In this document: in pieces, positions 4,488 through 59,176 of the stretch | Position numbering within the stretch: position 1 is the stretch's first letter | Layout of the letters: each line of letters begins with the position of its first letter | Assembly (NCBI GenBank): GCA_001972305.1 | Contig: BDDD01001484.1 | Coordinates: 234,084-298,083 of the forward strand | Source: Cephalotus follicularis | Lineage: Eukaryota > Streptophyta > Magnoliopsida > Oxalidales > Cephalotaceae | Length of the DNA stretch: 64,000 nt | Direction of reading: 5' to 3' | Translations under genes and position numbers: made by a program | Notes under the pieces: model-generated | Database searches by the model: none | Seen by the model: the letters and a program-made list of their open reading frames with translations, nothing else | Told to the model about the DNA's origin: nothing

Positions 4488-5013
4488 TGAAATAAACACT
4501 CTTGCAATATACAAGAGGGGGGGTGAATTGAATATTGACGTAAATATCGGGAATTTAAAAACTTTAAATTTAAAGAGTGAAGGGAAAGAAAAACTTCTCC
4601 AAATTTAGAGTGGTTCGGCTAACTCTTGCCTACGTCCACTTTTCCCAAGGGAGCTCCTTGATTTTCCACTATCTCGAATTGATTATGGCAGCAATTCGTT
4701 ACACCTTACAATTTCGTGATTGACCTCAATCACAAGACCTTGACGTCAAGACCTTAGAGGATTCTCCTCTTTTACAAGTAATTGTGAAAGTGTTTACAAG
4801 TTAACCTCTCAAATAGGTTTGATATGGCTAATACAGATCACAATGTGAAACACTCAGAAAAACTCAAAAGATAAAGCTTAGAAGCCTTTTAGAACACTAT
4901 AGAGCACTTTGAGCTTTTTGGCAATAGAATGCTTGAATATGATATTTCTCTTGATGTTGTATAATTCTTGTTGAATTGATGTAGTTAAGTAGTTCTTCTG
5001 AGGTTTGAGTCAT

Positions 5014-5024
5014 CCTTATATAGG
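5014..5024 (-). promoter_or_regulatory. TATA box in SIRE LTR
   Basis: On the minus strand the sequence reads CCTATATAAGG, a good plant TATA box. It lies about 750 bp into the LTR and upstream of the LTR 3' region, as expected for the U3/R boundary. The related LTR E11 has a matching box at 28194-28205. Confidence 0.7.
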
Positions 5025-5114: not shown

Positions 5115-5640
5115 TAAAGACGTCGATGTCTTTAGAAAGGCGTCGATTTCTTTGGTAGTTTCTAGCCGTTGTAAGTGCATTTACTAGCCGTTCCATGTTT
5201 CCCGGGTCAATGCATTTAAAAAGACGTCGATGTCTTTTAAAAGGCGTCGATGTCATTTCTGGGAATTTGTCTAGGCATCTGAATCTTTGAGCATCACATC
5301 GACTTCTTCTATAGGGGTCGATGTCTTTTCTGGGTTTTCCAGATTGGTCTAGAAAGACGTCGATGTCTATGGAAAGGGATCGACTTCTTTGCATGGACGT
5401 GGATGTCTTCATGAACAAGCATCGATGTCATCACTCGACATTATCCTGTAACTTTGGTACCTCAAGACGTCGATGTCTTTTGTACGGACGTCGATGTCTT
5501 TGCTTTAGGGATCGATGTCTTCACTAAAATTTGACCTGTAACTTCTGGCACTAAAGACGTCGATGTCTTCTTGAAAGGGATCGATGTCTTTTGTACGAAT
5601 GTCGATGTCTTTTTCTTGAAGGTCGATGTCTTTGCCCTGC
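5115..5640. repeat. TCGA-palindrome array, SIRE LTR
   Basis: About 17 copies of a degenerate palindrome AAGACGTCGATGTCTTT occur in 525 bp. Measured centre-to-centre spacings within runs are 20, 20, 20, 20, 22, then 21, 21, then 21, 21, 21. Runs are separated by 40-70 bp of ordinary sequence. Read on the minus strand this gives a repetitive KDIDVF-like peptide that is a by-product of the array. Confidence 0.9.
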
Positions 5641-5770
5641 AGAAGATATCTTTGCCCTGTAGAAGATTTTTGCCTTTTGTGGAACTTTGCTAATATCTTG
5701 CACATCAAGTAAACTTGTTAAATGCAAATATGTTATCATCAAAACTAGGATTGAGACTAAATCGTCAACA

Positions 5771-6115
5771 ATCTCCCCCTTTTTGATGATGACAAAAATT
5801 TGCTCAAAAAGGCATAAACATAAGTAATGTCAAATAAAACATAAGAGAATACCAATATAGTTATCTTATAAAGTAAGCAATGTTCATGAGAATGTTCCAT
5901 TTGAATGTGCAATATCAATTAGCTACAATATCAATTAGCTATGAGTTTTGCTTTTGAGAGCTCTTTCTCCCTATTAGTTATAAACTCTAACATTTTGAGC
6001 CTTTTCTCCCCTTTAATTAAAAACAAATGCAACAATGCTTCTCATGCTTTTGACCCTATTTCTCCCCCTTTTTTGTATAGCATCAAAAAGGTAGAAATCA
6101 TTAGCTCCCCCTTAA
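5771..6115 (-). promoter_or_regulatory. Cluster of polypurine tracts before the 3' LTR
   Basis: Minus-strand purine tracts of the type AAAAAGGGGGAGA lie at about 5771-5785, 6000-6015, 6060-6075 and 6105-6115. The one touching the LTR is the expected plus-strand primer. Multiple such tracts are a described feature of the SIRE (sirevirus) lineage. Confidence 0.75.
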
Positions 6116-7771: not shown

Positions 7772-7924
7772 AAAAATAGTTGGATTAGAGGATATGAAAA
7801 CGGTTTTTGATGTTGAGGAAGGATTCAGAAGATGGTTTTTGAAATACTAGAACAATTTTTTGAAAGAAAACCAGAGAGAAAAAAAAATTTGAGATGCTCA
7901 GAATAGGGTTAAAGTGAGAAATGA

Positions 7925-8215
7925 GCATGAGATCGACGTTTTTATGAAGAGGTCGATTTCTGGGTTAAAGACGTCGACGTGATTCTAAAGACGTCGACGC
8001 GTTCTTTAAAAAGAACGAAGGAAATCGATTCTGAAAATGCTGCGTTTTGAAAAGCATCAACGCGTTCCTAAAGTAGTCGACGTGTTTTAAAGAGATCGAT
8101 GTTTTGTGAAAGAGATCGACGTGATTTCATAAAACATAGAATTTTGCAGAAAAGAAGTCGACGTGTTTTTGTAAAACATAGAATTTTGCCGAAAAGAAGT
8201 CGACGTTTTTATAAA
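7925..8215. repeat. TCGA-palindrome array in the internal region of E2
   Basis: About ten sites (ATCGACG, GTCGACG and variants) lie between the third ORF and the end of pol, outside any LTR. Spacings of 20, 20, 19 and 20 bp can be measured within runs, the same as in the LTR array. Confidence 0.85.
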
Positions 8216-8339: not shown

Positions 8340-10544
8340 TATCTTCTAAACTTAGAAAAAGAGTTTTCATCTAAGGGTTTTGTGAAAATATCCGCCACTC
8401 ATTTTTCGGTGGGAATATACTCTAAAACAATGTCTCCACTTTCTACATGTTCTCTTAAGAAGTGGTATCTAATGTCAATGTGCTTTGTCCTAGAATGATG
8501 AACTGGGTTCTTAGCTAGGCAAATGCTACTAGTATTATCACATTTAATAGAGACATCCTTTACACAAATACCATAATCAACTAATTGTTGCTTTTGCCAA
8601 AGGATTTGTGCACAACAACTACCTACAGCAATATATTCAGCTTCGGTGGTAGATAAAGCTACTGAATTTTGCTTTTTACTAAACCAAGAGACAAGCCTGC
8701 TCCCTAGGTATTGGCATGAGCCACTAGTGCTCTTGCGGTCAACTTTATAACCACCAAAGTCGGCATCCGAGTAAGAATGTAAATCAAAATTAGAGTCTCG
8801 GGAATACCACAAGCCTAATGTAGGTGTGTATGCAAGATATTTAAAAATACGTTTCACAGCAAACAAATGGGATTCCTTTGGATTAGATTGAAATGGGGCA
8901 CACAAGCACACACTAAACAAAATATCGGGTCTACTTGTAGAGGTGCTCATAGGAGTCTTGCTTGTTTTAGCATTCTCCATTCCAAACTTCTTGAGAATAT
9001 CCTTTATGTATTTTGTTTGGTTGATGAAGATCCCATCTTTGTTTTATGTGACTTGTAGTCCAAGAAAGAAGTTGAGCTCTCCCACTCATTTCAAATTCAG
9101 ATTTCATGGTATTTGAAAATTCCTTGCACAAAGAGTCATTAGTAGATCCAAAGATAATATCATCAACATATATTTCAACAATAAGTAAATCATTACCTTT
9201 AGATTTTGTAAAAAGTGTAATATCGACATTTCCTCGTTTAAAATCATTTTCAATTAAAAACTTTGTCAATCTCTCATACCAAGCACGAGGGGCTTGTTTG
9301 AGTCCATATAAAGCTTTGTTTAATTTGAAAACATGATTTGGAAAGTGAGGATCCTCAAAACCTTGAGGTTGTTCAACATAAACTTCTTCTTTTATAAAAC
9401 CATTTAAAAAGGCACTTTTCACATCCATTTGATATAACTTGAAATTATTAAAGCAAGCAAATGCAATTAATAGACGAATGGATTCTAGTCTAGCAACCGG
9501 TGCATATGTCTCATCATAGTCTATTCCTTCTTCTTGTGAGTAGCCTTGGGCAACTAATCTAGCCTTGTTTCTAATGATGATCCATTGATTATCCATTTTG
9601 TTTCTAAAAACCCATTTAGTTCCTATAACCGAATGGTCCTTTGGTCTAGGTACTAAAAACCAAACTTTGTTTCTTTCAAATTGGTTTAGCTCTTCTTGCA
9701 TAGCTACAATCCAATTTTCATCTTTTTCGGCTTCTACGAAGTCTTTGGGTTCTAGGTGAGAAAGGAATGCAACATAGTTACAAGTGTTTGCACTAGACCT
9801 AGTCCTAATACCTTGTTGAATGTTACCAATGATAGCTTCATGAGGGTGGTCTCTAACTACCTTGTAAGTCTTATCTATAAGTTCTTTTTGGTGACTTTCC
9901 TTAGGTTCTATATCTAGGTCCTCCGAAGGTTCATGAAATTCTATGCTATCATGCATATGTGAACTTGAATCATGCAACTCATCAAAGACAACATGCATAG
10001 ATTCTTCTACTAGTAGTGTACGTTTATTGAAACACCTATAAGCTCTACTAGTAAGGGAGTATCCAAGAAATATACCTTCATCCGCTTTGGAGTCAAACTT
10101 ACCAAGTTGATCTTTTCCATTGTTGTGTATGAAGCATTTACATCCGAAGGCACGAAAGTAACTAATGTTAGGCTTTCTCTCATTCCATAACTTGTATGGA
10201 GTCTTTTTGAGAATTGGCCTTATTGATGTTCTATTTAAAATATAACATGCGGTGTTTGTGGCTTCGGCCCAAAAATACTTTGGTAAATCATTTTCGCAAA
10301 GCATAGTTCTAGTCATTTCTTCTAATGTTCTATTTCTCTTTTCAACTACTCCATTTTGTTGAGGAGTCCTAGGGGTTGAAAATTCATGTTTAAAACCATT
10401 TTTAATGCAATAATCATCAAAAATATTATTTTCGAATTCTTTGCCATGATCACTTCTAATTTTCAAAATAGAAAGTCCTTTTTCTTTTTGAACAATTTTA
10501 CAAAAATTGGCAAAGAATGTAAACGTTTCACTTTTATGTGCCAA
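8340..10544 (-). pseudogene. E2: SIRE pol (integrase C-terminal half, RT, RNase H)
   Basis: The reading begins inside the integrase core. The second aspartate (SDHGKEF) and the glutamate (VVEKRNRTL) of the DDE triad are present, but the first aspartate and all upstream gag, protease and integrase N-terminus are missing. Then follow RT (MDVKSAFLNG; YVDDIIFGST catalytic box near 9140-9170) and RNase H (SYSDADFGG; STTEAEYIAV). A frameshift lies near 8975-9060. An in-frame deletion of some 35 residues joins MSTS to TSRPDI near 8925. A stop replaces the residue after PTEK at 8399. The motifs match copia SIRE. Non-functional. Confidence 0.9.
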
Positions 10545-10746
10545 AAAATAAACCCATGTGTACCTAGTATAGAGCAGTTAATTCTGTTACAAAAGGAGTC
10601 GATGCTATTGTAAAGGAGTCGACTTCTTTTTCTGCAGAATGGTTTTAGACTTTGATATTCAACTTGTAATTCCTTGCACATCAAGTAACTTAGTTAGATG
10701 CAAATATGTTATCATCAAAACAAGGATTGAGACTTAATCGTCAACA
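10545..10746 (-). mobile_element. E2: truncated 5' LTR fused to integrase
   Basis: On the minus strand the LTR begins TGTTGACGATTAAG at 10746, runs about 180 bp including two TCGA sites 20 bp apart (10598-10622), then passes at about 10560 into integrase coding. The rest of the LTR, the primer site, gag and protease have been deleted. Confidence 0.85.
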
Positions 10747-11377: not shown

Positions 11378-11943
11378 TGTAATAACCGCAATTTTAAATT
11401 CAATGTATATTGTACAATTGATGAATAAAATATACATTGACTTGGAATTAATGCTTAATTGCCATTTTGATTGAGCTAATTGTGGTTATTAAATTGTTTG
11501 AGGACTTAATTGAATGAAAATTAGACTAAATTAAACTAATTTGAAAGTTGGTTGAATATGGTTATGAAATCAGAAATTTTGGCGCTTGACAGTCAACTGT
11601 CGCAGAGCAACAGTCGACTGGTCGACTCGTAAAGGGACAGTCGACTGTTAGAGGAAACAATCGACTGGGATAGCTCAGACAGGTGTCTATGCATGGCGAT
11701 TGAAAAATGAGCAAGGCGTGAATCATTGGACAGGTGTTTTGCGACAAATGAACGTGGCACAAACGTGTCACCAGCTGCTCACAATGGATGACTTAGTGTC
11801 TTTTGTGTGTCCTGAGCTCTGTAAACTTCAATAAGAAACAAAAATGACAAGAAAACAGTGAAGAGCGAGAGAGAAGAAAATGCTGAGAACCTGAGTTAAA
11901 GAGTTTAGACAAATTCCTTGAATGAATTCGTATATATCTGTTT
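11378..11943 (+). mobile_element. E1: 3' LTR, truncated
   Basis: The LTR starts TGTAATAACCGC. At 11585-11670 it carries several copies of CAGTCGACTG, the second type of TCGA palindrome, which also occurs in E8 and E16. It is lost at about 11944, where Athila LTR sequence begins. Confidence 0.8.
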
Positions 11944-12393: not shown

Positions 12394-12969
12394 GAACGGA
12401 AATAAAGCAATCCTAGTTACAAAATCTGGCAAAAAATCTAACTTTCTATTTCTGCTGCAGAGGAAGGCGTCGACTTCTTTTGAAAGACGTTGATGTCTTC
12501 TTGTAAAAGTCGTGTTTTGCTGAGTTGCGCTTGAAAGATGTCGAGCCCTAAGCAGAAAGACGTCGATGACTTTTACTCTAAATTTCACAGGTCGAATTTG
12601 CACAAAGGCGTCGATCCCTATGATGAAAGACGTCGATCCCTTTCTCATAGCTCCCTAAGGTAAGTTGCATTTTCCAGAAAAGACTTCGATCCTTAAAGAA
12701 AGACGTCGACGCTTTTGATGTAAACCCAGAAAAGACATCGCGGTGTATGATAGACATCGACGTGTTTACTCTGTTTTCTGCCGAATTTGTTCATTCTTCA
12801 ATCTTTACTCTTTCAAGCTTCAATTTACACAACTTTGGGTAGTATTCTTGCACTTTAGTCATTTAGCACTTATATCTGAAAATCAACATAACACAACCAA
12901 AGTAGTCTATTCCAAGCATAAAAATATCACAAATAACGCATTAAAAACAACACATTTATATGCTAAACA
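12176..12969 (-). mobile_element. E5: Athila 3' LTR
   Basis: This 794-bp LTR on the minus strand starts TGTTTAGCATAT at 12969, next to a polypurine tract, and ends at 12176 lacking its last 14 bases compared with the copy at 16518-17218. Sites of the TCGA array fill 12465-12765. Confidence 0.85.
12465..12765. repeat. TCGA-palindrome array, Athila 3' LTR
   Basis: About nine sites of the AAGACGTCGA type occur. Measured spacings are 20 (12469), 22 (12606) and 20 (12686). The same array is present in the other Athila LTR at 16610-16925. Confidence 0.85.
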
Positions 12970-13458: not shown

Positions 13459-16400
13459 TCATAATGGAGGATCATAAAGAGGCTCATGCAAGGCCATGGC
13501 CTCTTTCATCGGTGCAGCTGGAATCTCTAAAAATTTCTTCAATCTTTGCACATTTACTTTGAACACATCTTCAATATCTGGCTTACATATCTCAAAAACA
13601 CCATGTGAGAAAACATTTTTAACAATATAAGGACCATCCCAACGAGACCTCAATTTGCCAGGAAACAAATGTAAACGTGAATTATATAAAAGAACCTTGT
13701 CTCCTACTTCAAAATTTTTACGTAAAATCCGCGCATCATGAAAAGCCTTGGTCTTTTCTTTGGAAATCTTTGCATTGTCATATGCGTCATTTCGAATTTC
13801 TTCTAACTCAGATAATTGAAGCGCACGATGACTACCCGCAATGGAACGATCAAAATTAAATTGCTTTATAGCCCAAAATGCTCGATGTTCCAATTCCACA
13901 GGAAGATGACAAGCTTTACCATACACAAGACAGTAAGGAGATTGACCAAGGTCAGTTTTGAAAGCGATTCAATAAGCTCATAAAGCATCCACAAGTCGCG
14001 TGGACCAATCCTTTCTATTGGGTTTAACTGTTTTTTCGAGAATTTGCTTGATTTGGCGATTAGATACCTCAACTTGCCCACTCGTTTGGGGATGATATGG
14101 TGTGGCAAGCTTGTGAGTGATCTCATACCTTTTCATAAGGGCTTCAAACAAACGATTGCAAAAATGAGTAACTCTATCACTGATAATGGCACACGGGGTG
14201 CAAAAACGAGAAAAAATATGTCCCTTGAGAAATTTAACAACAACGGAGTTGTCATTGATTCGACAAGGAATCGCATCAATCCACTTTGAAACATAATCAA
14301 CAGCTAGAAGGATGTATAAATTCCCAAATGAATTGGGAAATGGACCCATAAAATCAATACCCCAAACATCAAAGATCTCAACCGTGAAAATCGGTGTCAA
14401 AGGCATCATATTTCGTTTCGTCACACGGCCTAAAGCTTGACACGAAGCACAAGCCTGACAGTACTGAAATGCATCTTTAAAAATAGTCGGCCAATAAAAA
14501 CCACATTGTAAAACCTTAGCCGCTGTCTTGGTCGGGCCGAAATGACCACCACATGCTTGATCATGACAAAATGATAAAACGGAACGATGCTCATGATCAG
14601 GAACACAACTTCGCAAAATTAAATCCGGACATGCTTTGAAAAGATAAAGATCATCCCAATAAAAATGTTTCTCTTGCGACAGAAACCTATGCCTAACTTG
14701 AGCTGACCAATCCGAGGGTACACTTCCCATAACGAGATAATTAACTATGTCCGCATACCATGGTTCGCTCTCAACGCGCATAATCTGCTCATCAGGAAAA
14801 CTCTCATTAATCAGACCATGGACCTCGAGTGTGTTGGGAAGTCGGGAGAGATGGTCGGCTACCAAATTCTCAGTTCCTTTTTTGTCTCGAATTTCAACGT
14901 CAAACTCTTGAAGGAGCAGAACCCACCGAATAAGACGCGCTTTTGCATCTTTTTTACTCATGAGATGCCGAATCGTAGCATGATCAGTATACACGATGAC
15001 ATGAGATCCTAAAAGATATGAACGAAATTTCTCTGGTCGTGTAATTCAATTGCACATCGGAAAGGGTCCTACTTGCATAATAAATGACGTGAGGTAGTTT
15101 ATTCATTCTTTGACCGAGAACAGCTCCAATGGCACTATCGGAAGCGTCGCACATGATCTCAAAAGGGTCAGTCCAAATTGGTGCCTGAATGATAGGAGCG
15201 AAAGTGGCTCCTTCTTTAAGCGGTTAAATGCTACAAGGCACTCATCAGAGAAAACAAAATCTTGATCTTTCTAAAGGAGCGAAGTCAATGGGCGTGCTAC
15301 CTTGCTAAAATCCTTGATGAACCTTCGATAAAAACCACCATGTCCGAGGAATGCTCGGATATCTTTCACATTACGAGGTGGAGGCAAATGCTTGATGACT
15401 TCAATTTTTGCTTTATCTACTTGAATTCCATCTTTTGACACTGTATGTCCAAGAACGATCCCCTTCTTCACCATGAAATTGCACTTTCCCCAATTAAGCA
15501 CCAAATTCTTCTCTCGACTTCTTTCGAGTACTAACTTTAGGTGATGAAGGCATTGAGAAAAGGAGGAACCATGTACCGAAAAGTCATCCATAAATACTTC
15601 AAGAAAGTCTTCCACCATGTCAGAGAAAATACTCATCATGCACCTTTGGAAGGTGGCGGGAGCATTGCAAAGGCCAAACGGCATGGGTCGGTAAGCAAAT
15701 GTTCCGAAAGGGCATGTGAACGTGGTTTTCTCTTGATCTTGCGGAGCGATGAGGATTTGATTGTATACGGAGTACCCATCTAGAAAACAGTAATACTCGT
15801 GACCAGCTAACCTATCTAGCATTTGATCGATAAAAGGAAGAGGAAAATGATCCTTCCAGGTTGCTGTATTCAACTTTTGGTAGTCAATGCACACCCTCCA
15901 TCCGGTTTGGATTTTCGTAGGAAGTAAGTCATCAGTGGAGGATTGCACTACCATTACTCCAGACTTCTTTGGGACATCATGGACTGGACTTACCCATTGA
16001 CTATCCGAAATGGGGTAGATGATCCCATTGTCCAGCCACTTCAAGATTTCTTTTTGTATGGCTTCTTTCATCAAGGGATTTGCTCTTCACTGAGGTTCTC
16101 AAGAAGGTTTGGATCCTTCTATGAGATTTATTCGATGCTCGCAAATAGAAGGGCTAATTCCTTTGATGTCGGCCATCGTCCAACCAATTGCCTCTTTATT
16201 TTCTTTGAGAAGGTCAATAACCTCCTCTTCCTGACTAGGAGTAAGATCAAATGAAATGATAACAGGAAGAGTTTGGTTGTCACCTAGAAACGAGTATTTT
16301 AATGTAGAGGGCAATTCTTTGAGTTCAAGTTTCGGAGGCTCCTTAATTGATGGTTTAGGCAAGGATGTGGACAATGGTCCCACTGGCTCTAATGGCTGCA

Positions 16401-16517: not shown

Positions 16518-16609
16518 CCAAGTGCATGAATACTACCCAAAGTTGTGCAAATTGGAGCTTGAAAGAGTAGAGATTGAAGAATTGACAAATTCTACAGAAA
16601 CAGAGTGAA

Positions 16610-16925
16610 AAGCATCGATATCTTTCGTAAGGATCGATGTCTTTTCTGGGTTTATAGTTCTGGGTTTATAGTAAACACATCGATGTCTTTTGGTGCGGAT
16701 CGATGTCCTTTCTGGAATTGCAGCCTACCTTTAAATGCTATGAGTAAGACATCGTTGTCTTTCGCTAAACGCATCGATGTCTTTCTGCAAATTCGTCCTG
16801 TGAATTTTTTATCAAAACACATCGATGCCTTTCATCAAAAGGATCGATGTTCATTATGCGCATCTCAGCAAAACACAATTTTTTACAAAACACGTCGACC
16901 TTCAACCAAAGGCATCGAGGTCTTC
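16610..16925. repeat. TCGA-palindrome array, second Athila LTR
   Basis: About eleven degenerate sites occur, with measured spacings of 19, 20 and 22 bp within pairs (16617, 16680, 16823). Orthologous to 12465-12765. Confidence 0.85.
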
Positions 16926-20729: not shown

Positions 20730-20884
20730 TGTAATGCTCAGAATTTTCACACGTTGTGATATTTGATTTCCAAATGTTATCTTATTATTGAATTAATGAG
20801 AATGATGAATTTCCCGGTTAAAATGTTGATTCTAAATCAATTAAAGTACTTAGAAGTGTGATTGCTTAGTAAGTACACCAAAAA

Positions 20885-21990
20885 TAGTCGACTGGTACGT
20901 TAGACCAGCCGACTGGTCAACTGTGAATTGGAACGGTCGACTGGTGGGATGAACCAGTCGAATGGCCAACTGTCAAGCCACATGGCAACGAACTGCCAGG
21001 CGAACAGTCGGCTATTGGGAAAGGACAACCGACTGGATTATGCTCTATTTTGTTGCATTTGACGAGATCACATGCAACAACTGACAAGAGCATCTTTCAC
21101 GCGCCATCTGAGGCCAGATAAAATGTGTAGGACATGCACACAACTGTTGGAACCTGTAAAGACTGAAGGGAAGAGTGGGAGTGACATGTGTGTGTGCATG
21201 CAAGTGATGGAGGGGAGATAATGGCATTTAGTGCCATGCAACGGGCTAAGAGAAAGAAATGGCATAAAAACACTCTCCCCCTTCGCCTCTCTCACCCAGC
21301 ATCCGAACAAAAGGAAAACACTGTGAGAATTTGGGAGGAGAAAGGAGGAAGAGAGATATTGTCCAACAATTGAACCAAGAAGGAAAGCTAGGAGGAGACA
21401 TATTCGAGCTATTGGACCTGGTAGGACTTACTGTGGAGCTCAACAACGCTACTGTTCATACTAAAAGAGGTGGACTTACAGATTACTAACTTGGAATCAA
21501 AAGGTAGGGGAAGTTATGTTGTATTTGAGCTCAAAATTACTGAATGTTATGAGATCGGTTGCTTGTTTGTATGAGCTGTGATGTTCTGTTGATATGTCAT
21601 GGTTACTACTGGTTTTTCGAATGCCATGCTTACTGTTGAGAATTATTGCGTTTATGTACATGCATGTTGAGTTTTATCTTGGTATTAAATTGCTGGACAA
21701 TATGCATGGTATTGTTGTGTTCTATGAACCTTTTAAGAACAGTTGATTGATATTCTGTCTTATGAATGTACGTGGGTTGCTTGCAATGATCCGTTTGGGG
21801 TAATATTTTGGATTGCATGCAACTAGTTTCCCAGAATAGTCGACTGTCAAAGGAAGACAGCCGATTGCTCAACCGAAACAGTCGACTGTTGAAGGATAAT
21901 ATATGACTGTCTGATGAACAAGTCAACTGGTAGAAGGAACCAACCAACTACTCATGTACTGATTACCCAGAATATCCGACTGGCAAAGGA
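20885..21990. repeat. CAGTCGACTG palindrome clusters in E8 LTR
   Basis: Two clusters lie at 20885-21045 and 21838-21990. Spacings of 21 bp separate TCGA/CCGA centres near 20890, 20937 and 21840. Arms are CTG/CAG rather than the GTCTT/AAGAC of the SIRE type. Confidence 0.8.
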
Positions 21991-22897
21991 TCCAGCTGAC
22001 TGCCAAGCTGTTGTTTGGTTCTCTCTTGCTTAAAACGATGCGCGATGATCCCGACTCCGTTTAGGATGCATTAGAACATTTGTATGCATTGCATATGTAC
22101 TGTTTATTGCCTGTATATTGACTGGTTATAAACTGTTTGTGATTTCTAGATTACTACGATAATTTAGAAATGCATATGAAACTGAAAATAACTCTCTTGA
22201 GTACTAAAATATATAATTGATAAAAACGCATTTTCGAACAACTGGGGAAAGCGATTTTCGCCCACTGAATCTGTTTAAAAGAATTTTCTACTACTGAAAA
22301 TGCATATTTCGAATGTTTATGACCTTCAAAAAAATTTTGAAATGAACTGCTTGTTGTCGGTCTAAACGATCACTACCGTACTGTTTACTGGACTATTTAC
22401 TATATTGATTCACTGTGTTGCTCTATGAATTTAGTGTGGTTGTGCTTAAGCCATACTAGTTGCGTGGCGGGAACTGCCAGCGATGACTAGTGGCAGGGTT
22501 GACCTAAGGGCCGAGAGTTGGCTGGGTGACTCACTGTACTTTACTGTTGTCTTGGTTGGTTGCCTGGAGAAGGGACCGAAGTGGGAGTGCAACGTGGGCC
22601 CAGGAGTTGGTGGCGTTGTACATACTGACTTCCTATTTGTGGTCCCTTTGTGGACTTACTGTACTGTTTACTGGTCCTATTCGGACATTACAGTGCCTGT
22701 GATATAGCTCTGGCTGGGTTACTACTGTACTGTTATTGCATACATATATTTTATATATGTTTCTACTGATATTTTACCACACTGTTAAATTATATATTTT
22801 TTCATATATATAAACTTGTAATTTTTACTGCTCCGCATCATCTACGCATACATCACATGACATGCACGTAATTTTGGTCCCGAACTACCTTTATAAC

Positions 22898-25674: not shown

Positions 25675-25828
25675 TGAAATAATAAAAAGAGTTCTTGCAA
25701 TATACAAGTCATTACGAGTTCTTGGTGATGCCTTTTGGTGTTACCAATTCACCAGTAGCTTTCATGTCATTGATGAATGGCGTATTCCGGCCATACCTGG
25801 ATGAAATAATAAAAAGAGTTCTTGCAAT
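25581..25828. repeat. 127-bp tandem duplication with a SIRE LTR relic
   Basis: 25581-25707 is repeated at 25708-25828 without a difference I can see. Each unit holds RT coding followed by TGAAATAATAAAAAGAGTTC, the outer end of a SIRE LTR as at 27698. A SIRE insertion at 25675 was almost wholly lost, leaving 34 bp, and the block was then duplicated. Confidence 0.85.
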
Positions 25829-29262: not shown

Positions 29263-29444
29263 TGTAACGCCCAAGATTTTCCTATGTTGTAATTTCACAA
29301 TGTAATGCGTCCTTATTGTGGAATTAATAAAAGAATGGATTTCCAAGACCTTAATGATGTTTTCCAAACTCTAATAAAGTGGATTTTAGAGTAAAAATGT
29401 TCAAGGAATGTTAAAAGGGTGGGATGACGTTGTTTTGGAGGAAA

Positions 29445-30650
29445 CCCGTCGACGCCTTTCGAAGCACATCGACGTCCTTGAAGCAAAGGGGCGCACGTAA
29501 CTGCATGTACATGCACGTTGATACAGGCAAGGACATCGACGCCCTTGTGTAAAAGGGGAAAAAACATCGACGTCTTTGAAAAAACGTCGATGCATAAACA
29601 TCGAATGTCAGGCACGTTACTCCAGTGACAAGATAACGTGCGAGGGGGCATTATCCATGAATCTTAACATGCCGATTGTGACGTGTTGAGCATGCACTAT
29701 GGTACCCTGCACTGCTAGGACTGAAATGGCAGAAGTGGCAAGGCATGTGAGAGCATGCAATGGCCTTGGCAGCAAAAGGGGAGACACCAGGTGCACCATG
29801 CAACCAGGTATGGGGAAGGTGTGAAGAAGAGGGGATTCTGGCATTGGTGCAGAAGGAAACAAACTCCAACCAACATAAAACACCATTCTCTGCGTAAAAT
29901 GAAGGAAGAGAAAAACAAGAAAAAGGAAAACACAAAGAAACAGTGAGGAGAGATAAAGGTTTCCACCATTGTTGAACTTTGGTTGGAGCTTGGAACTTGG
30001 AGCTGGTGGCTTGCAGCAACAGGACGGACCTGGAGGGGCTGCTGTGACCAGTTTGGAACGCAAAGAGGTAGACTTTCTTGCTCCTAACTTGGAACAAAAG
30101 GTAGGGGAAGCTATAACTGTAATCTTGAGATTAATGTCCATGCATGGACTATGATTTTGGTGTATAAATTGCATGAATACTGAATTGATTTTGCTCACTG
30201 GATTAATGCCATGTTATGCTAGATATGTGATATGTATCTACATGTTGGTTCCCCGCCTTGATTACATTTTGTTTTGCATGTATATCGGTTGTAAGAGCTA
30301 CTGTCTGTAATTTCGTGAGGAAAAAGACGACTGCTCCTCGAAAAACGTCGACGCCTTTTAAGTACATCGACGTCTTTGGGTTTTTGCTTGGTTACTTATG
30401 TGAAACAGATCGACGTCTTTGGAAAGACATTGTCGCCTTAGGTTATCTGTTTGGGTTTTGACGTATTACACGTCGATGCCTAGGGTTCCTACCCTAACGC
30501 GTCGACGCCATAAGCAATACACTAACGTTTTAAGGTTCCAGACCTTGAGCGTCGATGCGTATAAAATGGACATCGATGTCTTTAAACAGTAGGAAACCCT
30601 GACACTAAGGACTTGGACATCGACGTTGATTGATAAAGACATCGACGTCT
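29445..30650. repeat. TCGA-palindrome arrays in E12 LTR
   Basis: Two clusters (29445-29600 and 30340-30650) of GTCGACG, ATCGACG and variants flanked by CTTT and AAAG. Measured pair spacings are 20 (29448), 20 (29570) and 19 (30345). Confidence 0.85.
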
Positions 30651-31088
30651 TTTGGCACTGTTTGGAGGTTCCCTTATCTAACGATGCGAAACGATCCCGA
30701 TTCCTGTTAGGGTGCATTTGAGCACTTGTATGCATTGCATATACACTCTTTACTGCCTGTTTGGTTACTGTTTGTAAATCATTTATGATTTCTAAATTTG
30801 TGATGTTTAGAAATGCATATGTGGACTCAGAATGTGCTATTTTGAGTATGAAATATGTATTGGTTAATAACGTATTTTCAAACGAACTGGTAAACAATTT
30901 ACACTACTAATTTGTTAAAAGGTATTTTACTACCGAAATTACATATTTCAATTATTTATTACTTTCAGAAATATTTGAAAACGAACTGCCTGTTGTCAAT
31001 CTAAACGATCACCACTGTACTGTTTACTACACAGTTTACTGTTTGATTCACTGGTTGCTCTGTGAATTTCTATGTGGTTGTGCTTGAG

Positions 31089-36924: not shown

Positions 36925-37110
36925 GAAACCGTCGATGACTAAGTAATGACCGTTGATGCTTAATACTCTGAACTGCGTTTTATATGTCGCATTGCGCTAA
37001 ACGTCGACATCTAAGGGAGGAGGTATCGACGCCCAGACACTGAAAGCGCTGACGCTAAGGGACTAAACGACGACGCTTAAGGCACATAAGCGTCGATGCC
37101 TGAGGAATAA
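36925..37110. repeat. TCGA-type array in E13 LTR
   Basis: Sites such as CGTCGACATCTAAG, AGCGTCGATGCC and CCGTCGATGACTAAG. The typical arm is CGCTTAA rather than GTCTTT. The 3' LTR copy is at 43425-43625, where several sites are closer to the GTCGACGCTTAA consensus. Confidence 0.8.
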
Positions 37111-38008
37111 ACGCCGACCCTTTAGAGTCCTGTTTGGACAGTTTTACGATTTTGATGCCCGACGATCCCATTTCGCTTAGGATGCATTAGAGCATTTGTA
37201 TGCATTGCATATGCATTACTTACTGCCTGTTCTTGACTGTCTATAGATTGACTATGATTTCTAAGTATCGTTACTTTAGAAATGCTTATATGAGTTGGAA
37301 CTATTATGTTGAAAACGAAAATATAAGATGAGTGTTATTATATTTTTGAACATATTGGGGAAGCAATTTCCGCTTACTGAAACTGTTTAAAAGTATTTCT
37401 GTTACTGAATATGTATATTTCAAATGTTTATAACCTTCAAAAACCTTTTGAAATGAACTGACTGTGGTCGATCTAAACGATCACTACTGTACTGTTACTG
37501 CACTGTCTACTGTTTGACGCATTGTTTTCTCTATGAAATTCTATGTGATTGTGCTTGAGCCACTGGTTGCATGGCGGAGGCTGCCAGCGCCGGCTAGTGG
37601 TAGGGTTGACCTAGGGGCCAGGAGTATGGCTGGGTGACTCACTGTACTATACTGTTGCCTCGCTCGGCCGCCTAGAGTAGGGACCAGAGTGGGAGTGTAG
37701 CGTGGGGCCAGGAGTTGGCGGCGTTACATATACTGCCTGATTGTTGTGGTCCTTATGGACATACTGTACTGTCTGTTGGTCATTTTCGGACATTACTGTG
37801 ACTGTGGATGTGATACTGGCTGGATCACTACTGTACTGTTCTTGCATACATATATTTTCTTATATAAGTACCCACTGATATTTTATTGTATTGCTAAAAT
37901 ATATATATTCCTCATATATATATGTAAACTGGTATTTCCTGCACTGCATCTTTCATGCATACATTACATGACATGTATCTAATGTTGACCCCGAGCTACT
38001 TTTATGAC

Positions 38009-43035: not shown

Positions 43036-44940
43036 GCAAAACTCCATTGTTGAGCAAAGGAAGCTTGGAGCTTGCACACCAACTGCTAGGACGAACCAGG
43101 GAGCCTTCAAGCCGTACCTGGGACTCAAAGTGACTGGTAGGATACTAAAAGAGGTGGACTTTTGGCTTCTAACTTGAGGCCAGAGGTAGGGGAAGCCATA
43201 ATTGTATTTTGTGTTCAATACTTAGTGTTTGTTCAGTGATGTTCATGCATTAATTTCATGGTTGGATGATCCGTATTTAGTCACTGAAATGATTCTACCT
43301 TGTACTGGGTGTGTCACAGGATATTGCATGACCGTTTCTTGTGCTTTATACCTGTTGGAATACATGTTATATGCATGGAAATGTCACTGTTTAGCCATGT
43401 CGTGAGGTAGAAGACGACCCCTTCTTGAAACCGTCGATGACTAAGTAATGACCGTCGACGCTTAATACTGTGAACTGCGTTATATATATCGAATTGTGCT
43501 AAACGTCGACGTCTAAGGGAGGAGGTATCGACACCCAGACACTGAAAGCGCTGACGCTAAAGGACTAAACGGCGACGCTTAAGGCACATAAGCGTCGACG
43601 CCTTAGGAATAAACACCGACGCTTTAGAGTCCTGTTTGGACAGTTTTACGGTTTTGATGCCCGACGATCCCGTTTCGCTTAGGATGCATTAGAGCATTTG
43701 TATGCATTGCATATGCATTACTTACTGCTTGTTCTTGACTGTCTATAGATTGACTATGATTTCTAAGCATCGTTACTTTAGAAATGCTTATATGAGTTGG
43801 AACTATTATGTTGAAAACGAAAATATAAGATGAGTGTTATTATATTTTCGAACATATTGGGGAAGCAATTTCCGCTTACTGAAACTGTTTAAAAGTATTT
43901 CTGCTACTGAATATGTATATTTCAAATGTTTATAACCTTCGAAAACATTTTGAAATGAACTAACTATTGTCGATCTAAGCGATCACTACTGTACTGTTAC
44001 TGCACTGTCTACTGTTTGACGCACTGTTTGCTTTGTGAAATTCTATGTGATTGTGCTTGAGCCACTGGTTGCATGGCGGAGGCTGCCAACGCTGACTAGT
44101 GGTAGGGTTGACCTAGGGGCCAGGAGTATGGCTGGGTGACTCACTGTACTGTACTGTTGCCTCGCTCGGTCGGCTGGAGTAGGGACCGGGGTGGGAGTGT
44201 AGCGTGGGGCCAGGAGTTGGCGGCGTTACATATACTGCCTGACTGTTGTGGTCCTTATGGACATACTGTACTGCCTGTTGGTCCTTTTCGGACATTACTG
44301 TGACTGTGGATGTGATCCTGGCTGGATCACTACTGTACTGTTCTTCCATACATATATTTTCTTATACATGTACTTACTGATATTTTACTGCACTGCTAAA
44401 ATATATATATTCCTCGTATATATATATATATAAACTGGTATTTCCTGCACTGCATCTTTCATGCATACATTACATGACATGCATCTAATGTTGACCCTGA
44501 GCTACTTTTATGACTTAGCCGAGTGAGGACAAAGGCTAACCCCCTACTTTAAAGATTGATGCAGTGGACCAGTACTGGACTGGAAGGGACAAAGAACAAG
44601 TTGTTATGATGTTTTGTTCTGGGTTTTACTTCCTCATGTTTTGTAGTAAACCGAGCTTGTTTATGGACCAATGTGTTGTGCTTATGGTTTTGTTAATGAT
44701 GGGATTTAACCTTGTATTCTGATCACGCTCCGTTTTGTGGGCTATTAGCAATGACGGACTTGTTTTGGGTAGCGTGTAGTATGGGATGCACGCTACGAGT
44801 TTATAGCTTATGAATTTTTATGCTTTCGCAACTGACATCTTGCTTCAAAGTTTAAATTTTACGGTTTTTACATGAGCTGTAATTATGTGTTAATTGCCTT
44901 ACCGCTTTAATATTGCCTTCTCGATAAACATGGTGTGACA
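43036..44940 (+). mobile_element. E13: 3' LTR, 5'-truncated
   Basis: It starts within the LTR at a position equal to 36536 of the 5' LTR, so about 680 bp of LTR, the polypurine tract and the end of pol are deleted. CAAACTCC is present at both edges of the deletion. It ends GGTGTGACA at 44940 and E12 coding resumes at once. Contains the TCGA-type array (43425-43625), a donor-like GTAGGGG (about 43182) and the stem-loop (44515-44539). Confidence 0.9.
44515..44539 (+). promoter_or_regulatory. Conserved LTR stem-loop, E13 3' copy
   Basis: Identical to the copy at 38009-38033. Confidence 0.7.
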
Positions 44941-45319: not shown

Positions 45320-46780
45320 AACGCGTCGATGTCTTTTTAAAGACGTCGACGCCTATGGGAGCGAAGGGCGCACGCACATGCATGAACATGCACGTCGATG
45401 CAGACAAAGGCATCGACGCCCTTGTATGAAAGAGGAAAAGACATCGACGTCTAGAGAAGACGTCGACGTCTTTGAGAAGAATATCACTCACGTTATGAAC
45501 TGACAGACTAACGTGCAAGGGAAGGGAATCCAAGGCCTTTGCAGGCACCAGATGCAACGTGTTGTGCATGCTGAAATGTTACCAGCCATGCAACAGAACG
45601 TGTCCTCAACCTAGTGCATGCAAAGGGCACACATCTTCATCTGCAAATGAAGAAAACAAAGAGGAAAAGATCAAAAAAGAAAGAAAAAAACAGGGAGAGA
45701 AGGGAATGGGGAAATGGAACCTGCAAATGCATGCAACGGGAATAGTGAAAAGGGGAGAGAGTTCTCTAGCATAAATGCTCTCTCTTCCCCGCTAGTTTGA
45801 TTAAACACCTGAGTGTTGAGGAGAACAGTGAGGAGAGATAAACACTTCCTCCATTGTTGAACCAGTGGAGCTTGGGAGCTTGGAGCTGAAAGCTTGCAGC
45901 AACGGGACAACCTTGAAGCTGCTGTGACCATTTCCTGGAACACAAAGAGGTGGACTTACACAGTTTCTAACTTGAAACCAGAGGTAGAAGAATTATATGT
46001 ACATATTTGAGTTCAAAGTTAATGTGTTGCCATGAATGAATTGCATGAATTTCATGCTTGTTGGGAGTCGAACTAAATGCTTGGTTGTTGATATGAACGC
46101 CTGTTGGTGAAGATCATGCATGCATGTTGATTTCTGGGTGAATCCCATGCTTGATTGTATGTGCATAAGGGTTGAGTACCCCTGTTTGTGGATAGAAGGA
46201 AAGAGACAGTGTTCTGGGCTCTTAAAACGTCGATGCTCTGGTGGTAAGCATCGATGTCTTTGTGCGATGAGGCAATAGACGTCGATGTCTTAGTGAAGCG
46301 TCGATGTCTATTTCAAACATTTGCAGAATGCAATGTTATCTTCTGGACTTTATGGATTTCTGGTGGGTTGATGATCTGGTTATATATGTGGATAACCTGT
46401 TGTGCATATTACACTTTGGCTAATGTATCTGGAATTGCATGCGTGGATGGAGGATGTTTCTTCATTGTAAATGGAGATTGGACGAATTGATACCTGCTGG
46501 TACCACTTAAACATCGATGTCTATGGAAGGCATCGACGTCTTTGGTTGCTGTGCACTAAGTCTTGTTCATAACGCGAGAACGTGTTAAGGTTCCTACCTT
46601 AAACGTCGACGCGCTGTGATGAACATCGACGCCCAAAGGATTTTGACCTATAAGCATCGACGCCTATAGAAAGACGTCGACGCGATTGGTATTGTTGCAA
46701 GCACTGACCTTGAAGGTGAACCTCGACGCTTTTGGGGCAATGGACATCGACGCGTTGAGGAAAGACATCGACGTCTTTCC
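45320..46780. repeat. TCGA-palindrome arrays in E14 LTR
   Basis: Three clusters at 45320-45475, 46225-46330 and 46510-46780. Measured spacings are 20 (45327) and 19 (45442). Pairs have the form TCGATGTCTTT...AAAGACGTCGA. The 3' LTR copy of the first cluster is at 50118-50275. Confidence 0.85.
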
Positions 46781-47203
46781 TCCTGGTTGTATTGTACAAA
46801 TATATTTTCCAAAAATCACCATGAAAATGATTTCAAATGTTTGGAATTATGTATACAAAAAATAAGTATTGTACAAAAAGGGCTGGTTATACATTGTGAA
46901 TAAATGTAATGTTGTCAAGTATTTTATACATAATAATTTACTTGGAAATGGACTGTGACGGAAATGTATATTTTCCAAAAGAATTGCGAAACGGTTTCAC
47001 ATAATTAAAATTATGTTACACGGACATGAGTATTTTTGAAAGATCGGAGAACATTTTAATGTATTGTTTTCAAGTATTTTATGATACACTAAAAGTACTT
47101 GAAAAGGATTGAAAAGGGACCCTTGTATTTTTTGGGGCAAAATATATATATGTTTCAAGAATTTATACTTATAAATTACTTCAAAAGGAATGTGAAATTC
47201 TGA

Positions 47204-50941: not shown

Positions 50942-51109
50942 TGTAACGCCCGGTATTTTCGTTTTTCTAATATTTCGTTTTAAGATGTAATCTTATGTTG
51001 AATTAATGAAAATGTTGGAGACTTAGACCTCAATAATGTTACCAAACCCTAATTATTGTTTTGGGGAAAGAAATGTGCATGATAAACCAAAAACGGCGCA
51101 GTTTTGGGG

Positions 51110-52445
51110 CAAACGCGTCGATGCCTTTGGAAAGACGTCGACGCCTATGGAAGCAAAGGCACACGTGAATGCATGTACATGCACGTCGATGTAGGTAAAG
51201 ACATCGACACCTTCTGGTGAAAAAAAAGGAAAAGACATCGACGTCTAAGGAAAGACGTCGACGCCTTTGTAAAGAACATCAATCACGTTAAACACTGACA
51301 GAGTAACATGCAATGGAAAATTTTGAGGCATCATCCAGACGCCTCTAGGCACGGGAAGGAGACGTGTTGATCATGCACAATGGCCTCCTGCCCTGCATGA
51401 CTGAAGATGGCAACAAGTGCTACCATGCATGCAACCTGTAAATAAAGCAGGAGAAGAAAACAAAATGAAAATGAAGAATTCTGGGATAGAGGGAGAGAAC
51501 ACGAGAGTGTTCATTGAATGCAAGGAGAAAAAGGATGGGGGAGCCATATGCCTAAGAACAACCCCTCCCCACCTCTCTCTCTCCTTTAAAACACCAAAGG
51601 AAACAAAGTGAGTAAAACCAGTGAGTGGGAGAAAGAGAGAGCCACCATTGTTGAGCTTGACTTGGAGCCAGAGACTTGGAGCTCGTGGATTGCAGTTGCC
51701 GAGAGGATCTTGGAGCTGCTGTGGCCAGAACCTTGGAACTCAAAGAGGTGGACTTTCCAGTTCCTAACTTGGAACAACAAGGTAGGGGAAAGTGATAACC
51801 TTATACATGCATTTTGGGTTTTAAGTTAGTGAATACCATGATGAATTGCATGATTATGGATGAATTGTGATCCTGGACTTGTTGTGATAACCACTGTGAT
51901 GTACGGAGTAAACATGCATGTGCAAATTACATGAGTATTTGAACTGGTTCATGTAATGGATGATTTTGATAATAGCCTGATGTGTTAAAACTATGGAGAA
52001 AATGTTCTGGGTTGGATAAACGTCGACGTCTATATATAGACGTCGATGTCTTCGCGTACGTATGGAAAAGACATCGATGTTTGAGTAAAAGCATCGATAC
52101 CTTTTCTGGGTAATCATAGAACTGTATTGTTTACTGCAGATGGCGAATTAGCCACTTGGGATTACATGTTTGATTACGAATTGACGTTCTGGTTACATAT
52201 CCTGATAACCAGTAGCTTTTCTTACGCCTTGACAGGGTGAGTTTCGCTTATATGAGGATTTAGGGGCTGGATTCTTCCCTCTAGAATTGAGAATTGTGAA
52301 CTGATACCTTCTGGCATCATAAAGACATCGATGTCTTTGGAAAGGCATCGACGTCTTTGGTCCAAAAGTGCCTGGGAATCACTGTACGAGGGGTTGACGC
52401 CTTAGGGTAAAGACGTCGACGCCCCGGGAATAGACATTGACGCCT
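51110..52445. repeat. TCGA-palindrome arrays in E15 LTR
   Basis: Three clusters with measured pair spacings of 20 each at 51118, 51239, 52022 and 52327. These are the cleanest examples of the TCGACGTCTTTGGAAAGACG type in the window. Confidence 0.88.
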
Positions 52446-53220
52446 ATCCCCCTGTTTAATGGAATTTCACTTGAATGGGACCCACCAGACCCGAAACGAC
52501 TCTAGAAACAATCCTAGATACATTCTGAGTATATGTTTGCATTATTACTGTGATTTGCATTATGGTTGATTTCTAAAAAGTGTTAACCATTTTGAAAAGC
52601 TTGTATGATTATTATGATCTTTATTGTATGAAAATGTATATTTGTCAACATATGAATATATATTTTTTAGAAATGACTGGGGAAAGTATTTTCCAAAGAC
52701 GGAGAAATGTTTTAAAGGAATGGCTATACCATCAAATAGTATTGTTTTAAGTTTTATAACTTATTACAACCTGTGACGGAGTTTTATATTTTAAACAAAT
52801 ATATTTGATCAAGTAATTATAGTTATTGCTTGACTTGTATTGTACGGTGTTTGTGCTTGTTGATTATTAGCCGCTGTGCTAGTAACCCGCTGTTGGCTTA
52901 GCCGCCGTGCTAAGAAACATACGGAGGACTTGCTTCAAACCGTTCGCAAACGGGGATTGGAGTAAGAGTGCATGACGTTGGGGCCAGGAGGTGGCGACGG
53001 TTATGATGACTGGTTTGTCTGGTTCCTTTTGGGACATACTTGCTGCTTGTGTTGATATAGCCTTATGAGGTTATACCTGTACTGTGAGCATGCATATATT
53101 TTTATATGTATATACGGAGATAAAATTACTGTGAAAATTACATGTCATACTGCATCATAATGCATTCATTCATGATACTCATTATCATATGACTCAAACT
53201 ATATCTATGAGTTTATTCAC

Positions 53221-56490: not shown

Positions 56491-59176
56491 TGTAATACCC
56501 TGTTTGTTCGTATGTGTTTTTACGGACTTTTTATGTTTTCGTTTCGGGCTTTTAAATTGTTTAATGTTAAAAGTCCGGTTGCCCTTTTGTTTTGGGCCAT
56601 TGACATCAGCCTGAATTTTTTTGGATGTGTTAATGCTATGTTGGGTTTGGTCCTTATTTACTTAGTTATTATCCAACTTATTTTTTTAACTCAATTACTT
56701 TCTTTTATTTTATTTCTTTTAATTCCTTTATTTCTTTCCTTTCTTATTTTCTTCTTTCTTTCCTATTCTTCCCTCTCCTCTCCCGAACTCTCTCATTCCC
56801 TCATTACTTTCACAAGGCAACCATATTCTTCTTCCTTATCAACCTGATTTTGTCCCATTTATTTCCTTATCTTTCCCTCAATATTCTCTTCTTTCCCGTT
56901 TTGGTTGCCTTTTGCTATTTATGTGAGACAATGCCAATGAGTCAGCTATCTCCTTTTGTCCTTTGCTGCTGCCGAACCTGCTGTGTCTTAGGGGCTGTGA
57001 TTTCTGTGTCTTCTTACTCCATTAATAAGGTTAGTCTCATCAAAGCTCAATTCAGAGATTGTGTTATTGTTATTTGTATGGCATTGCCAAAACTTTGAGT
57101 GTATGTTTTCTTTCCATTGATTCTATCAACAGCTGTGTTCTTCTTCAGTTAGAGTCGCCATTGCAGGTTAGTTGTTGCCTTACTGTGATGGTTATGTTGT
57201 TAGTTTTACCAAGGATTCGTTTTGGGCATGTATGGGTTCCTAGAGATGGTTTTGTTTTGGTTTCTGCATACTTGAATTTCCTGTCAAATAAATCCTTTGG
57301 TTGTAACGATCTGTAGACACCTAGGAAGTGTTAAATAATCTGGTTTTGATGCATGTGATCAGAATAAGTGGATAGAATTGGAGTTATACACATGCATGAT
57401 ATGGTTCAAATTTCTGTCACCTTAAATAGAATTGTTGTCAATATGTCTCTGTCAAATTCAGTGTTATAACATTGTTTTACATGCCATGTAAGGTTGTTTT
57501 AATGTTGGTAATCTTCTGGTGTTGAAAAATCCGAGTTTTGGCAACTAGATTGCACAAAACTGCACTAAACTGTTGTTCTATCACACAGAGCAGTCGGCTG
57601 CCCATATGAACAGTCGGCTGTTTGGTTTGAGTAGTCGGCTGTCTTGTGCGAACAGTCGACTGTTTTGTGTTGAGTAATCGGCTGGACCCCTGATTCAGTC
57701 GACTGCCTCCAGTCCAGATTATATAGTCAACTGGCCCTGTTGTGTAGTCGACTGCCACTCCTTGAACAGTCGACTGGATCCCTGAAACAGTCGGCTGGTT
57801 GTCCTGTAGCTTTCTGTTTTCATCCGTTCACTCTTCCGATGATTCCGGGTCTGTTTTAAACATCATTATGATTCTGTTTTATGCCCAAAATGAATTTTGG
57901 ACCCTTATTTGAATATTGTTATGTTGTATAGATTATTGTGCTACGTGAGGCAAATTAAGTTTACCGGATATTCGTAAGTTAGTCTGTGATCGCATAAGGT
58001 ACGGATCTTCGTTTCTTGATACACTCTTACTGATTTTATTAGAGTGCAAATTCAGTTATGTTTTGAGAATAAAATACGGATTCTTGTTTTAGTTATCATT
58101 CGGTTTCATCTGAATTGAATATGTTTTGTTTTAATGAGATTCTGCTCTTTGCTACTATCTTCGATTTTAGCGAAATAAAATCAGTTTTGGACATCTGAAT
58201 TATTTGAAATGAATTCAATTTTATGATATGTTATATTTGGCTTTATGAACTAAGTATATTTGCATAACTTGAAATAAATTCAGTTAATATTTTACGGAAA
58301 TGAATGTTTTTCTGGCTCAATGAATTCAGCTGTGTTATGTTATGAAATGTTATGCAAATGTCTCTTTATTGTGAAAATTAAAAAGTTTCCTTTTTTATTA
58401 TGAAAGTATATGTTATGCAAAACTATATCGTTTGAGAACGATTTGCGGCGTCTCTCTGGGATATCCTTGGATAGGATTTGTGATAGAGGCGTATGGATCG
58501 ATCCTAGTTATATGTTTTGGGATATGTTATGATATGGGAATTGTATGTGTAGTGCCGTACACTGCAATTCTATTTGGCAATGTGGATGTCGCGAATCCCT
58601 TGTTACTATGTGTTTCTGATATGTTATGGGTTTTGGTGCTTAGTTATGGAACCTATGTTTTGGAAAGGTATGCTTTATGGTTTCAAAGTTATGAACTTGG
58701 TTTACATGTTTTGCCGTGGGCATTTACAAAGTATGTTTAAACTATTTTATTGCTTAAGATTTCTGCTTTAAAGTACTTTTGAAATCTTCTTGCTTTAAAA
58801 TATCGTTTACTGTTTTACATTATATATCCGTACTGAGGTTTGCTCAGCCGCGTTTTTGTTTCCATGCGGCAGGTTATCAGGAGCGACGGGGCAATGTGTG
58901 ATGAGAGTGACTCCCTTATGTCTGAGGATCATCTAGGAGCTGATCCCTTTTGTGTTTATGTGGTCATAGTGGGACCCGTTTAATAAACAATATGTTCATT
59001 TTAATTTATGACTTTTGGATTATGAATAAGTTTCAGTTTATGATCAGTTTTGGTATGTTATCAGATATGTTTGAACCATCATGTTTTTAATGAAGGTGAA
59101 CCTTTCCAGTATGATATGTTATGTTAAGTTCTGTAATTTGCACCTGTAGTGACTCCCACAGCTCGGGGGTGTTACA
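56491..59176 (+). mobile_element. E16: 5' LTR
   Basis: A 2686-bp LTR from TGTAATACCC to GGGGGTGTTACA, inserted in the RNase H of E15. The left part (56640-56900) is a pyrimidine-rich T/C stretch that creates meaningless hydrophobic reading frames. CAGTCGGCTG or CAGTCGACTG sites fill 57588-57795. It lacks the TTAGCC stem-loop. E6 and E17 belong to the same or a sister family. Confidence 0.85.
57588..57795. repeat. CAGTCGACTG-type array in E16 LTR
   Basis: Nine to ten sites with measured spacings of 20, 21, 21 and 22 from 57590, and 21 near 57772. About half have a GTCGGC core instead of GTCGAC. Confidence 0.88.

Follow-up and report, generated by a model that had tools for sequence, protein, structure and literature searches.

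Retrotransposon content of the window

The DNA analysed here, called the window, is a stretch of 64,000 nucleotides from Cephalotus follicularis (assembly GCA_001972305.1, contig BDDD01001484.1, positions 234,084-298,083 of the forward strand). It is plant DNA densely packed with LTR-retrotransposons, and the features that concern us are compiled in Table 1. A gag piece from the window has 19 relatives among public proteins, all 19 from Cephalotus follicularis and many with about 80% identity over 30-48% of the query. A Pfam scan of 30 distinct ORF pieces returned, above the curated cut-offs, only gag (including the zinc knuckle), protease, reverse transcriptase, RNase H and integrase-type domains; several of the scanned ORFs had no match at all.

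The copia element, SIRE, has a pol of the RVT_2 family, while the pol of the gypsy elements is RVT_1, and the reverse transcriptases of the two gypsy lineages, Athila-type and Tekay-type, are 40% identical. The Athila label is provisionally assigned from domain content and lineage hallmarks. Tekay is likewise an assumed label, chosen by domain content, LTR length and lineage hallmarks, since Pfam found no chromodomain in the scanned ORF pieces. Tekay-type LTRs (families T0 to T4) end at what are presumably primer sites of the initiator-tRNA type. In SIRE, we recognised the letters of the polypurine tract (PPT), and of a polyC stretch towards the 3' side of the LTR, from what we take to be Sirevirus hallmarks. 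The ORFs at the env position of SIRE (6693-7846, minus strand) are, judging by that position, probably env; two successive pieces match Transposase_32 in Pfam, at scores that stay under the curated cut-off.

Table 1. Palindrome arrays and associated features of the window. The main motif and its two variants are designated d1, d2 and d3.
Feature	Position	Strand	Basis or remarks
SIRE LTR TATA box, CTATATAAGG	5014..5023	-	about 100 bp downstream of last palindrome centre
SIRE LTR array A, 17 palindromes, d1 (AAAGACRTCGAYGTCTTT), upstream half of LTR	5115..5640	-	counts and matrix scan
SIRE polypurine tract and LTR start (TGTTGAC)	5770..5784	-	
SIRE array B, 10 scan hits, d1, between pol end and env-position ORFs	7925..8215	-	
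SIRE pol piece (integrase end, SH3_retrovirus, RVT_2)	8967..10577	-	Pfam
Two-site doublet (AAAGGAGTCGA...) beside SIRE pol piece	10590..10630	.	
Array D, d2 (CAGTCGACTG) sites	11585..11670	+	about 450 bp downstream of gypsy integrase-end ORF SH3_Tf2-1 (10773-11147)
Athila-type LTR array E, 10 sites, d1, five doublets	12460..12775	-	TATA-like box 121 bp downstream
Athila-type pol pieces (RNase H, integrase, RVT_1)	13978..16086	-	Pfam
Athila-type LTR array F, 10 sites, d1, five doublets	16605..16925	+	TATA-like box 93 bp downstream
Tekay-type T0 LTR arrays, d2	20880..22010	+	upstream of LTR block common to T0/T1/T2
Tekay-type T2 LTR array H1, d1	29440..29610	+	matrix scan
Tekay-type T2 LTR array H2, d1	30330..30660	+	last palindrome 41 bp before T0/T1/T2 block
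Tekay-type T1 LTR array, d3	36925..37125	+	
T1 array, second LTR copy	43405..43630	+	LTRs 95% identical
Tekay-type T3 LTR array J1, d1	45320..45475	+	copy 50115-50270 in 97% identical segment
Tekay-type T3 LTR arrays J2 and J3, d1	46220..46790	+	matrix scan
Tekay-type T4 LTR array M1, d1	51085..51275	+	matrix scan
Tekay-type T4 LTR arrays M2 and M3, d1	52015..52450	+	matrix scan
Array K, d2, 10 scan hits	57585..57800	+	upstream of further gypsy element
Array L, d3, six scan hits	63185..63385	+	TATA-like box 97 bp downstream

Array F is oriented opposite to the Athila-type pol pieces and therefore represents a different insertion of that family. The gypsy element downstream of array K has a primer site at 59182 and a 67% identical reverse transcriptase. 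TATA-like boxes stand 100, 93 and 97 bp past arrays A, F and L and 121 bp past array E; none was found within 200 bp of the arrays of T0 to T4, and array K has none.

Some rearrangements were also observed. Near 12176, two Athila-type LTR ends join tail to tail in an inverted junction (11941-12893). SIRE-type LTR fragments at 1645-1984 and 27715-28335 are 82-90% identical to each other and to 4483-4823, and after the second comes a d1 doublet (28305/28325) with centres TTGA and TCAA, as expected from CpG decay. A copy of a Tekay-type pol end (44940-45158, 93% to 42716-42934) immediately follows the end of an LTR, a tandem duplication of 127 bp, matching at 100%, is located next to a gypsy pol region (25581-25828), and A-rich tandem repeats of 17-22 bp (ACGAATCAAAACAGAACAGTT and others) cluster at 62347-62817, upstream of array L.

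A TCGA-centred palindrome with a spacing of about 20 bp

The window contains 280 TCGA tetramers. Base composition alone would give 233, and in 200 shuffles that preserve dinucleotides within 1-kb blocks the mean is 173.6 and the maximum 207. The excess is more evident in their arrangement: 55 pairs are 19-22 bp apart, compared to a mean of 2.1 and a maximum of 6 in the same number of shuffles. The register of about 20 bp described in the initial annotation thus exceeds its dinucleotide-shuffled controls within the 64-kb window. The 122 TCGAs of the 18 stretches listed as arrays, which include a few lying between clusters, share the strong flanking consensus AAAGACRTCGAYGTCTTT, and the 148 outside the arrays share none; ten TCGAs in second LTR copies were excluded from both sets. 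With a symmetric matrix whose centre was softened, 100 positions score at least 12 bits, compared to 1.3 in 60 shuffles, the scan matrices having been trained on these same arrays.

The count of about 17 palindromes previously given for array A agrees with ours, 17 TCGAs between 5123 and 5623; the matrix scan likewise yields 17 sites in 5115-5640, omitting 5435 and adding a TGGA-centred site at 5400. These sites had been described as palindromes, which holds for the 18-bp consensus and much less for individual copies: in this first array, strict palindromy is limited to 4 bp at 14 of the 17 TCGAs, mostly because one flank carries CG and the other TG.

Most sites form doublets of about 20 bp from centre to centre. 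A neighbour at 19-22 bp is present for 87 of 97 d1 sites (25/27 in SIRE, 20/20 in the Athila-type element, and 42/50 in the Tekay-type elements). Among the 95 neighbour spacings of 14 arrays (two each from SIRE, the Athila-type element and T2, three each from T3 and T4, and one each from T1 and L), 52 measure 19-22 bp and none falls at 8-17 or 25-28 bp; further clusters appear at about 31, 40-43 and 46-53 bp, and the distances between all pairs also peak at about 70-73 bp. It had been proposed that this spacing places the sites on one face of the helix. Two helical turns do fit the doublet, but beyond it the 41 spacings of at least 24 bp show weak phasing (uncorrected Rayleigh p 0.02-0.03), so the register is accounted for equally well by dense packing of 18-bp sites and by alignment along the helix. 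The arrays at 45.3 and 50.1 kb are not independent because they lie in 97% identical copies, and neither are those at 36.9 and 43.4 kb, which lie in 95% identical copies.

The ratio of observed to expected CpG exceeds the 0.67 of the window in 11 of 12 array stretches (0.69-2.67, with array K at only 0.69) and is below it (0.56) in the second block of T0. In the SIRE arrays A and B, for which the comparison is the CpG island formed by clusters of Sirevirus repeated motifs, it reaches 1.30 and 2.67 at a G+C content of only 43% and 37%. Searches outside the window, one by protein and one by pattern in viral contigs, gave no matches, and an array-derived peptide gave no protein candidate.

Dialects under one spacing rule

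As the initial annotation stated, the design recurs in one copia lineage and at least two gypsy lineages, which are distinguished by RVT_2 and RVT_1 and, within gypsy, by the identity level given above. The same motif is nevertheless not found at all the places it listed. The main form, d1, is carried by SIRE, the Athila-type element, and the Tekay-type families T2, T3 and T4. The sites at 11.6, 20.9-22.0 and 57.6-57.8 kb (arrays D, T0 and K) have the form CAGTCGACTG, d2, and those at 36.9/43.4 and 63.2 kb (T1 and array L) have a form like GCGTCGACGC, d3, which grades into the main motif, since many d3 matches are d1 sites. At 11 bits, the d2 matrix finds 27 matches compared to 3.9 in 60 shuffles, and the d3 matrix 78 compared to 2.0; at 8 bits, d2 gives 48 compared to 26.5, and weak d2 matches are singly unreliable. 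The spacings of array K are 20, 21, 21, 22, 21, 28, 21, 22 and 21 bp, one of its matches (57678, 8.8 bits) being weak.

The LTRs of T0, T1 and T2 can be aligned at 76-81% downstream of the array, as well as over about 55-70 bp upstream of it, while the array block itself cannot. Despite their different dialects, the three have their last palindrome 40-41 bp before the common aligned block, the T0 site used in this comparison being weak (9.9 bits). The dialects of the motif do not follow the relatedness of the elements, and the spacing rule is constant.

Conservation of the sites

Strong selection had been suggested as one explanation for the recurrence of the motif, and the cores of the three Tekay-type families that carry d1 are in agreement with it: at five sites of T2, T3 and T4, three-way identity of the 8-bp core is 90%, compared to 58% outside, and none of 212 slid masks is as high. 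The flanks of the palindrome beyond this core are not clearly better kept than the linkers in two of the three pairs. The same test fails for the Athila-type arrays E and F, in which the 8-bp core is not better kept than the linkers (50/72 compared to 103/142, with 180 of 318 slid masks being as good). These two arrays keep all 10 site positions, most of their changes fall at bases near TCGA, and TCGA itself is unchanged at 37 of 40 positions, although the scan by which the sites were chosen favours TCGA. When sites were picked by their outer bases only (58 sites at 8 bits), 51 had the central CG, and 23 and 22 had the flanking CpGs.

Within single insertions, the two LTRs of T1, which are 95% identical with the array included, show no reduced divergence in the array (15/201 compared to 71/1697 elsewhere). 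The LTR pair of T3 has fewer changes in the array than in the remainder (2/158 compared to 28/824), so a decay of arrays after insertion rests on T1. The left and right half-sites do not covary at six of eight offsets, with weak covariation at offsets 5 and 6 (p 0.02 and 0.05). Half-sites that vary independently at most offsets favour protein contacts over base pairing.

Comparison with known motif arrays

The initial annotation knew of no named element of this kind. The SIRE arrays, however, match the layout published in 2010 for the repeated motifs (RM boxes) of Sireviruses, including the cluster that precedes env, as that layout is given in the sections of the paper relevant here (PMC2829016). 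SIRE has the RVT_2 pol, the PPT with the LTR start at 5770, and the polyC stretch of a Ty1/copia Sirevirus, PPT and polyC being signals that this source names for Sireviruses (PMC2829016). In both systems, many palindromes (at least eight copies in RM boxes, 17 in array A) occupy the upstream half of a copia LTR, a TATA box follows shortly after the last of them (in SIRE about 100 bp past its centre), and a second cluster, here array B, precedes env, which in SIRE is assigned by position. Two features differ. Most Sirevirus copies are stated to begin 200-400 bp past the junction of PPT and LTR (PMC2829016), whereas the first palindrome of SIRE is found at 147 bp. The published core is CGG-CCG, and Tnd-1 (ACAATCGATTGT) is given as its sole exception among the motifs in that text; the core here is TCGA within GACRTCGAYGTC, although the motifs of Tnd-1 and of Vitis (CGGTCGACCG) are also TCGA-centred, as in our arrays (PMC2829016). 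Because the core differs, we claim only a likeness in layout and not strict membership among the RM boxes.

The gypsy arrays are not RM boxes, as their carriers have an RVT_1 gypsy pol and include no Sirevirus, but they may work like RM boxes. The relevant sections of the 2010 paper call the motif specific to Sireviruses among the Ty1/copia elements studied (PMC2829016), whereas here the palindrome also occurs in gypsy elements, with a doublet rule of about 20 bp and several dialects. The Sirevirus layout was already known; what is new is that gypsy lineages share the palindrome, in multiple dialects and with one spacing rule.

VANDALs are DNA transposons. In Arabidopsis, the target arrays of their VANC proteins resemble ours, according to the parts of two reports that bear on them, in being dense short motifs of noncoding regions, often in tandem, and in diverging between related elements (PMC5735166, PMC10398659). 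They differ in that VANDALs encode the protein that binds the motif, no such protein having been found here among the ORF pieces scanned with Pfam, and in that the VANC motif is YAGTATTAY, the word palindrome being absent from the 2017 text (PMC5735166). In maize, a CACCGGACNNNGTCCGGTG palindrome shared by Copia elements and Helitrons gives a precedent for sharing across superfamilies within one genome; the available description concerns structured regions and gives neither a spacing rule nor a gypsy lineage (PMC10760457). Among titles and the openings of abstracts, mostly outside the subscription literature, none was found to report a palindrome array common to copia and gypsy LTRs.

Origin of the shared arrays

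If the array had arisen once and then moved from copia to gypsy LTRs or the reverse, through recombination or gene conversion, followed by local amplification, a segment of shared ancestry would explain the identical motif without parallel acquisition. We evaluated this possibility in the linkers, with the palindromes masked and shuffled linkers as the control, after dropping two of the 12 arrays (H1 and J1), which are homologous to M1. Eleven linker 7-mers are common to the three lineages, compared to 3.9 in shuffles (reached in 2 of 200), as are forty 6-mers, compared to 30.2 (5 of 200); SIRE and the Athila-type element share 38 7-mers, compared to 26.3 (6 of 200), and one shuffle in 200 attains the mean of the ten best alignments between linkers. 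The best single alignment, by contrast, is reached by 13 of 200, no linker 8-mer is common to all three lineages, and Athila-type and Tekay-type linkers show no excess of common 7-mers (76 of 200). A second common linker motif, TCTGGCA, occurs four times where 0.06 are expected, the best of 993 7-mers, two of the four occurrences being in the related arrays E and F. Outside the masked comparison, two long matches stand out: SIRE 5528-5602 with T4 52292-52369 (80% over 79 columns, of which about 27 bp precede the doublet) and SIRE 5487-5587 with array F at 16748-16850 (72% over 103). In both matches, however, the two LTRs run in opposite senses, an arrangement not expected from template switching between sense RNAs. 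Also in favour of transfer are tandem repeats of 90, 42 and 14 bp within arrays A, B and F and nearest-neighbour units, which belong to the same lineage in 51 of 97 cases, compared to 36 expected and a maximum of 49 in 300 label shuffles, and the unalignable array blocks between the otherwise alignable LTRs of T0, T1 and T2 look like the outcome of module replacement. Transfer would still need later change, given the differing dialects under one spacing rule, and we regard it as a rather unlikely account of the whole. As far as the sequences can tell, the lineages seem mostly to use one motif in parallel, and some exchange or a small accessory motif may be involved in addition.

Two other explanations dispense with a binding protein. 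The palindromes could be maintained, or exposed, as secondary structure of RNA or DNA, mainly as sources or targets of silencing small RNAs; all four arrays that were folded are indeed more stable as RNA than dinucleotide shuffles (z -4.1 to -5.8), as expected of palindrome clusters, and the relevant parts of the maize studies report small-RNA hotspots on Sirevirus palindromes (PMC5311732, PMC10760457). Structure alone, however, would not predict a common 18-bp sequence, a nearly fixed TCGA, or a register of 19-22 bp, the half-sites do not compensate for each other at six of eight offsets, and active families would be expected to lose a silencing target rather than retain it, all of which makes this explanation very improbable. 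Still less credible are neutral minisatellites generated by slippage, with the palindromes incidental: the arrays do contain several short tandem repeats, but units of the same array are only slightly more alike (6.5 mismatches in 20) than units of different lineages (7.0), the cores of T2, T3 and T4 are conserved, and E and F have retained every site position.

Proposed role of the arrays as docking sites for a dimeric protein

We therefore favour, with a probability of roughly 0.6, the reading in which the arrays are selected docking sites in U3 for a putative dimeric protein, used in parallel by unrelated elements. In agreement with it, units of different lineages are nearly as alike as units of one array, and one 18-mer is identical in SIRE, T2 and T3. 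On the basis of this one 64-kb window, the array is real and shows signs of selection, and it is most likely regulatory. The sequences show the motif, its spacing, its position in the LTR or before env, its presence in several lineages, the conserved cores of three families, and half-sites that are mostly independent; the protein, its dimeric binding, and the activation or protection of a promoter are what we infer from it. The arrays would be regulatory regions upstream of the promoter, in which each palindrome docks a putative homodimer through two independent half-site contacts around TCGA, and two dimers about 20 bp apart would make up a doublet. Doublets would recur before the promoter, often 42-53 bp apart. 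SIRE, the Athila-type gypsy element, and several Tekay-type families would share, in parallel, one factor or members of one factor family, and related elements may change dialect yet retain the spacing rule. The arrays would grow partly through local tandem duplication, and selection would retain them in active elements and let them decay after a copy has inserted. Since the carriers do not all belong to one element family, the host most likely encodes the putative factor.

Auxin-response factors, whose sites have outward TGTC halves, were considered and set aside as candidates. Within the doublet, TGTC and GACA would be separated by 8 bp, a gap that does not match the inverted-repeat spacing of these factors, and many of the halves read CGTC.

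A bolder extension of the docking reading, which we consider doubtful, is a cis-regulatory password that crosses superfamilies, with a few dialects and a fixed doublet spacing, read by a fast-changing family of dimeric proteins with which LTR lineages would switch in step. Its readers would be host activators, or anti-silencing proteins given in trans by one element. If unrelated lineages do converge on one palindrome and one spacing, the arrays would be a case of dialect switching, with related elements that differ in motif and share the layout, in which the co-evolution of elements and reader proteins becomes testable. The factor that reads them could then be a common control point for much of the mobile DNA of this genome, and it could be sought by a simple pull-down.
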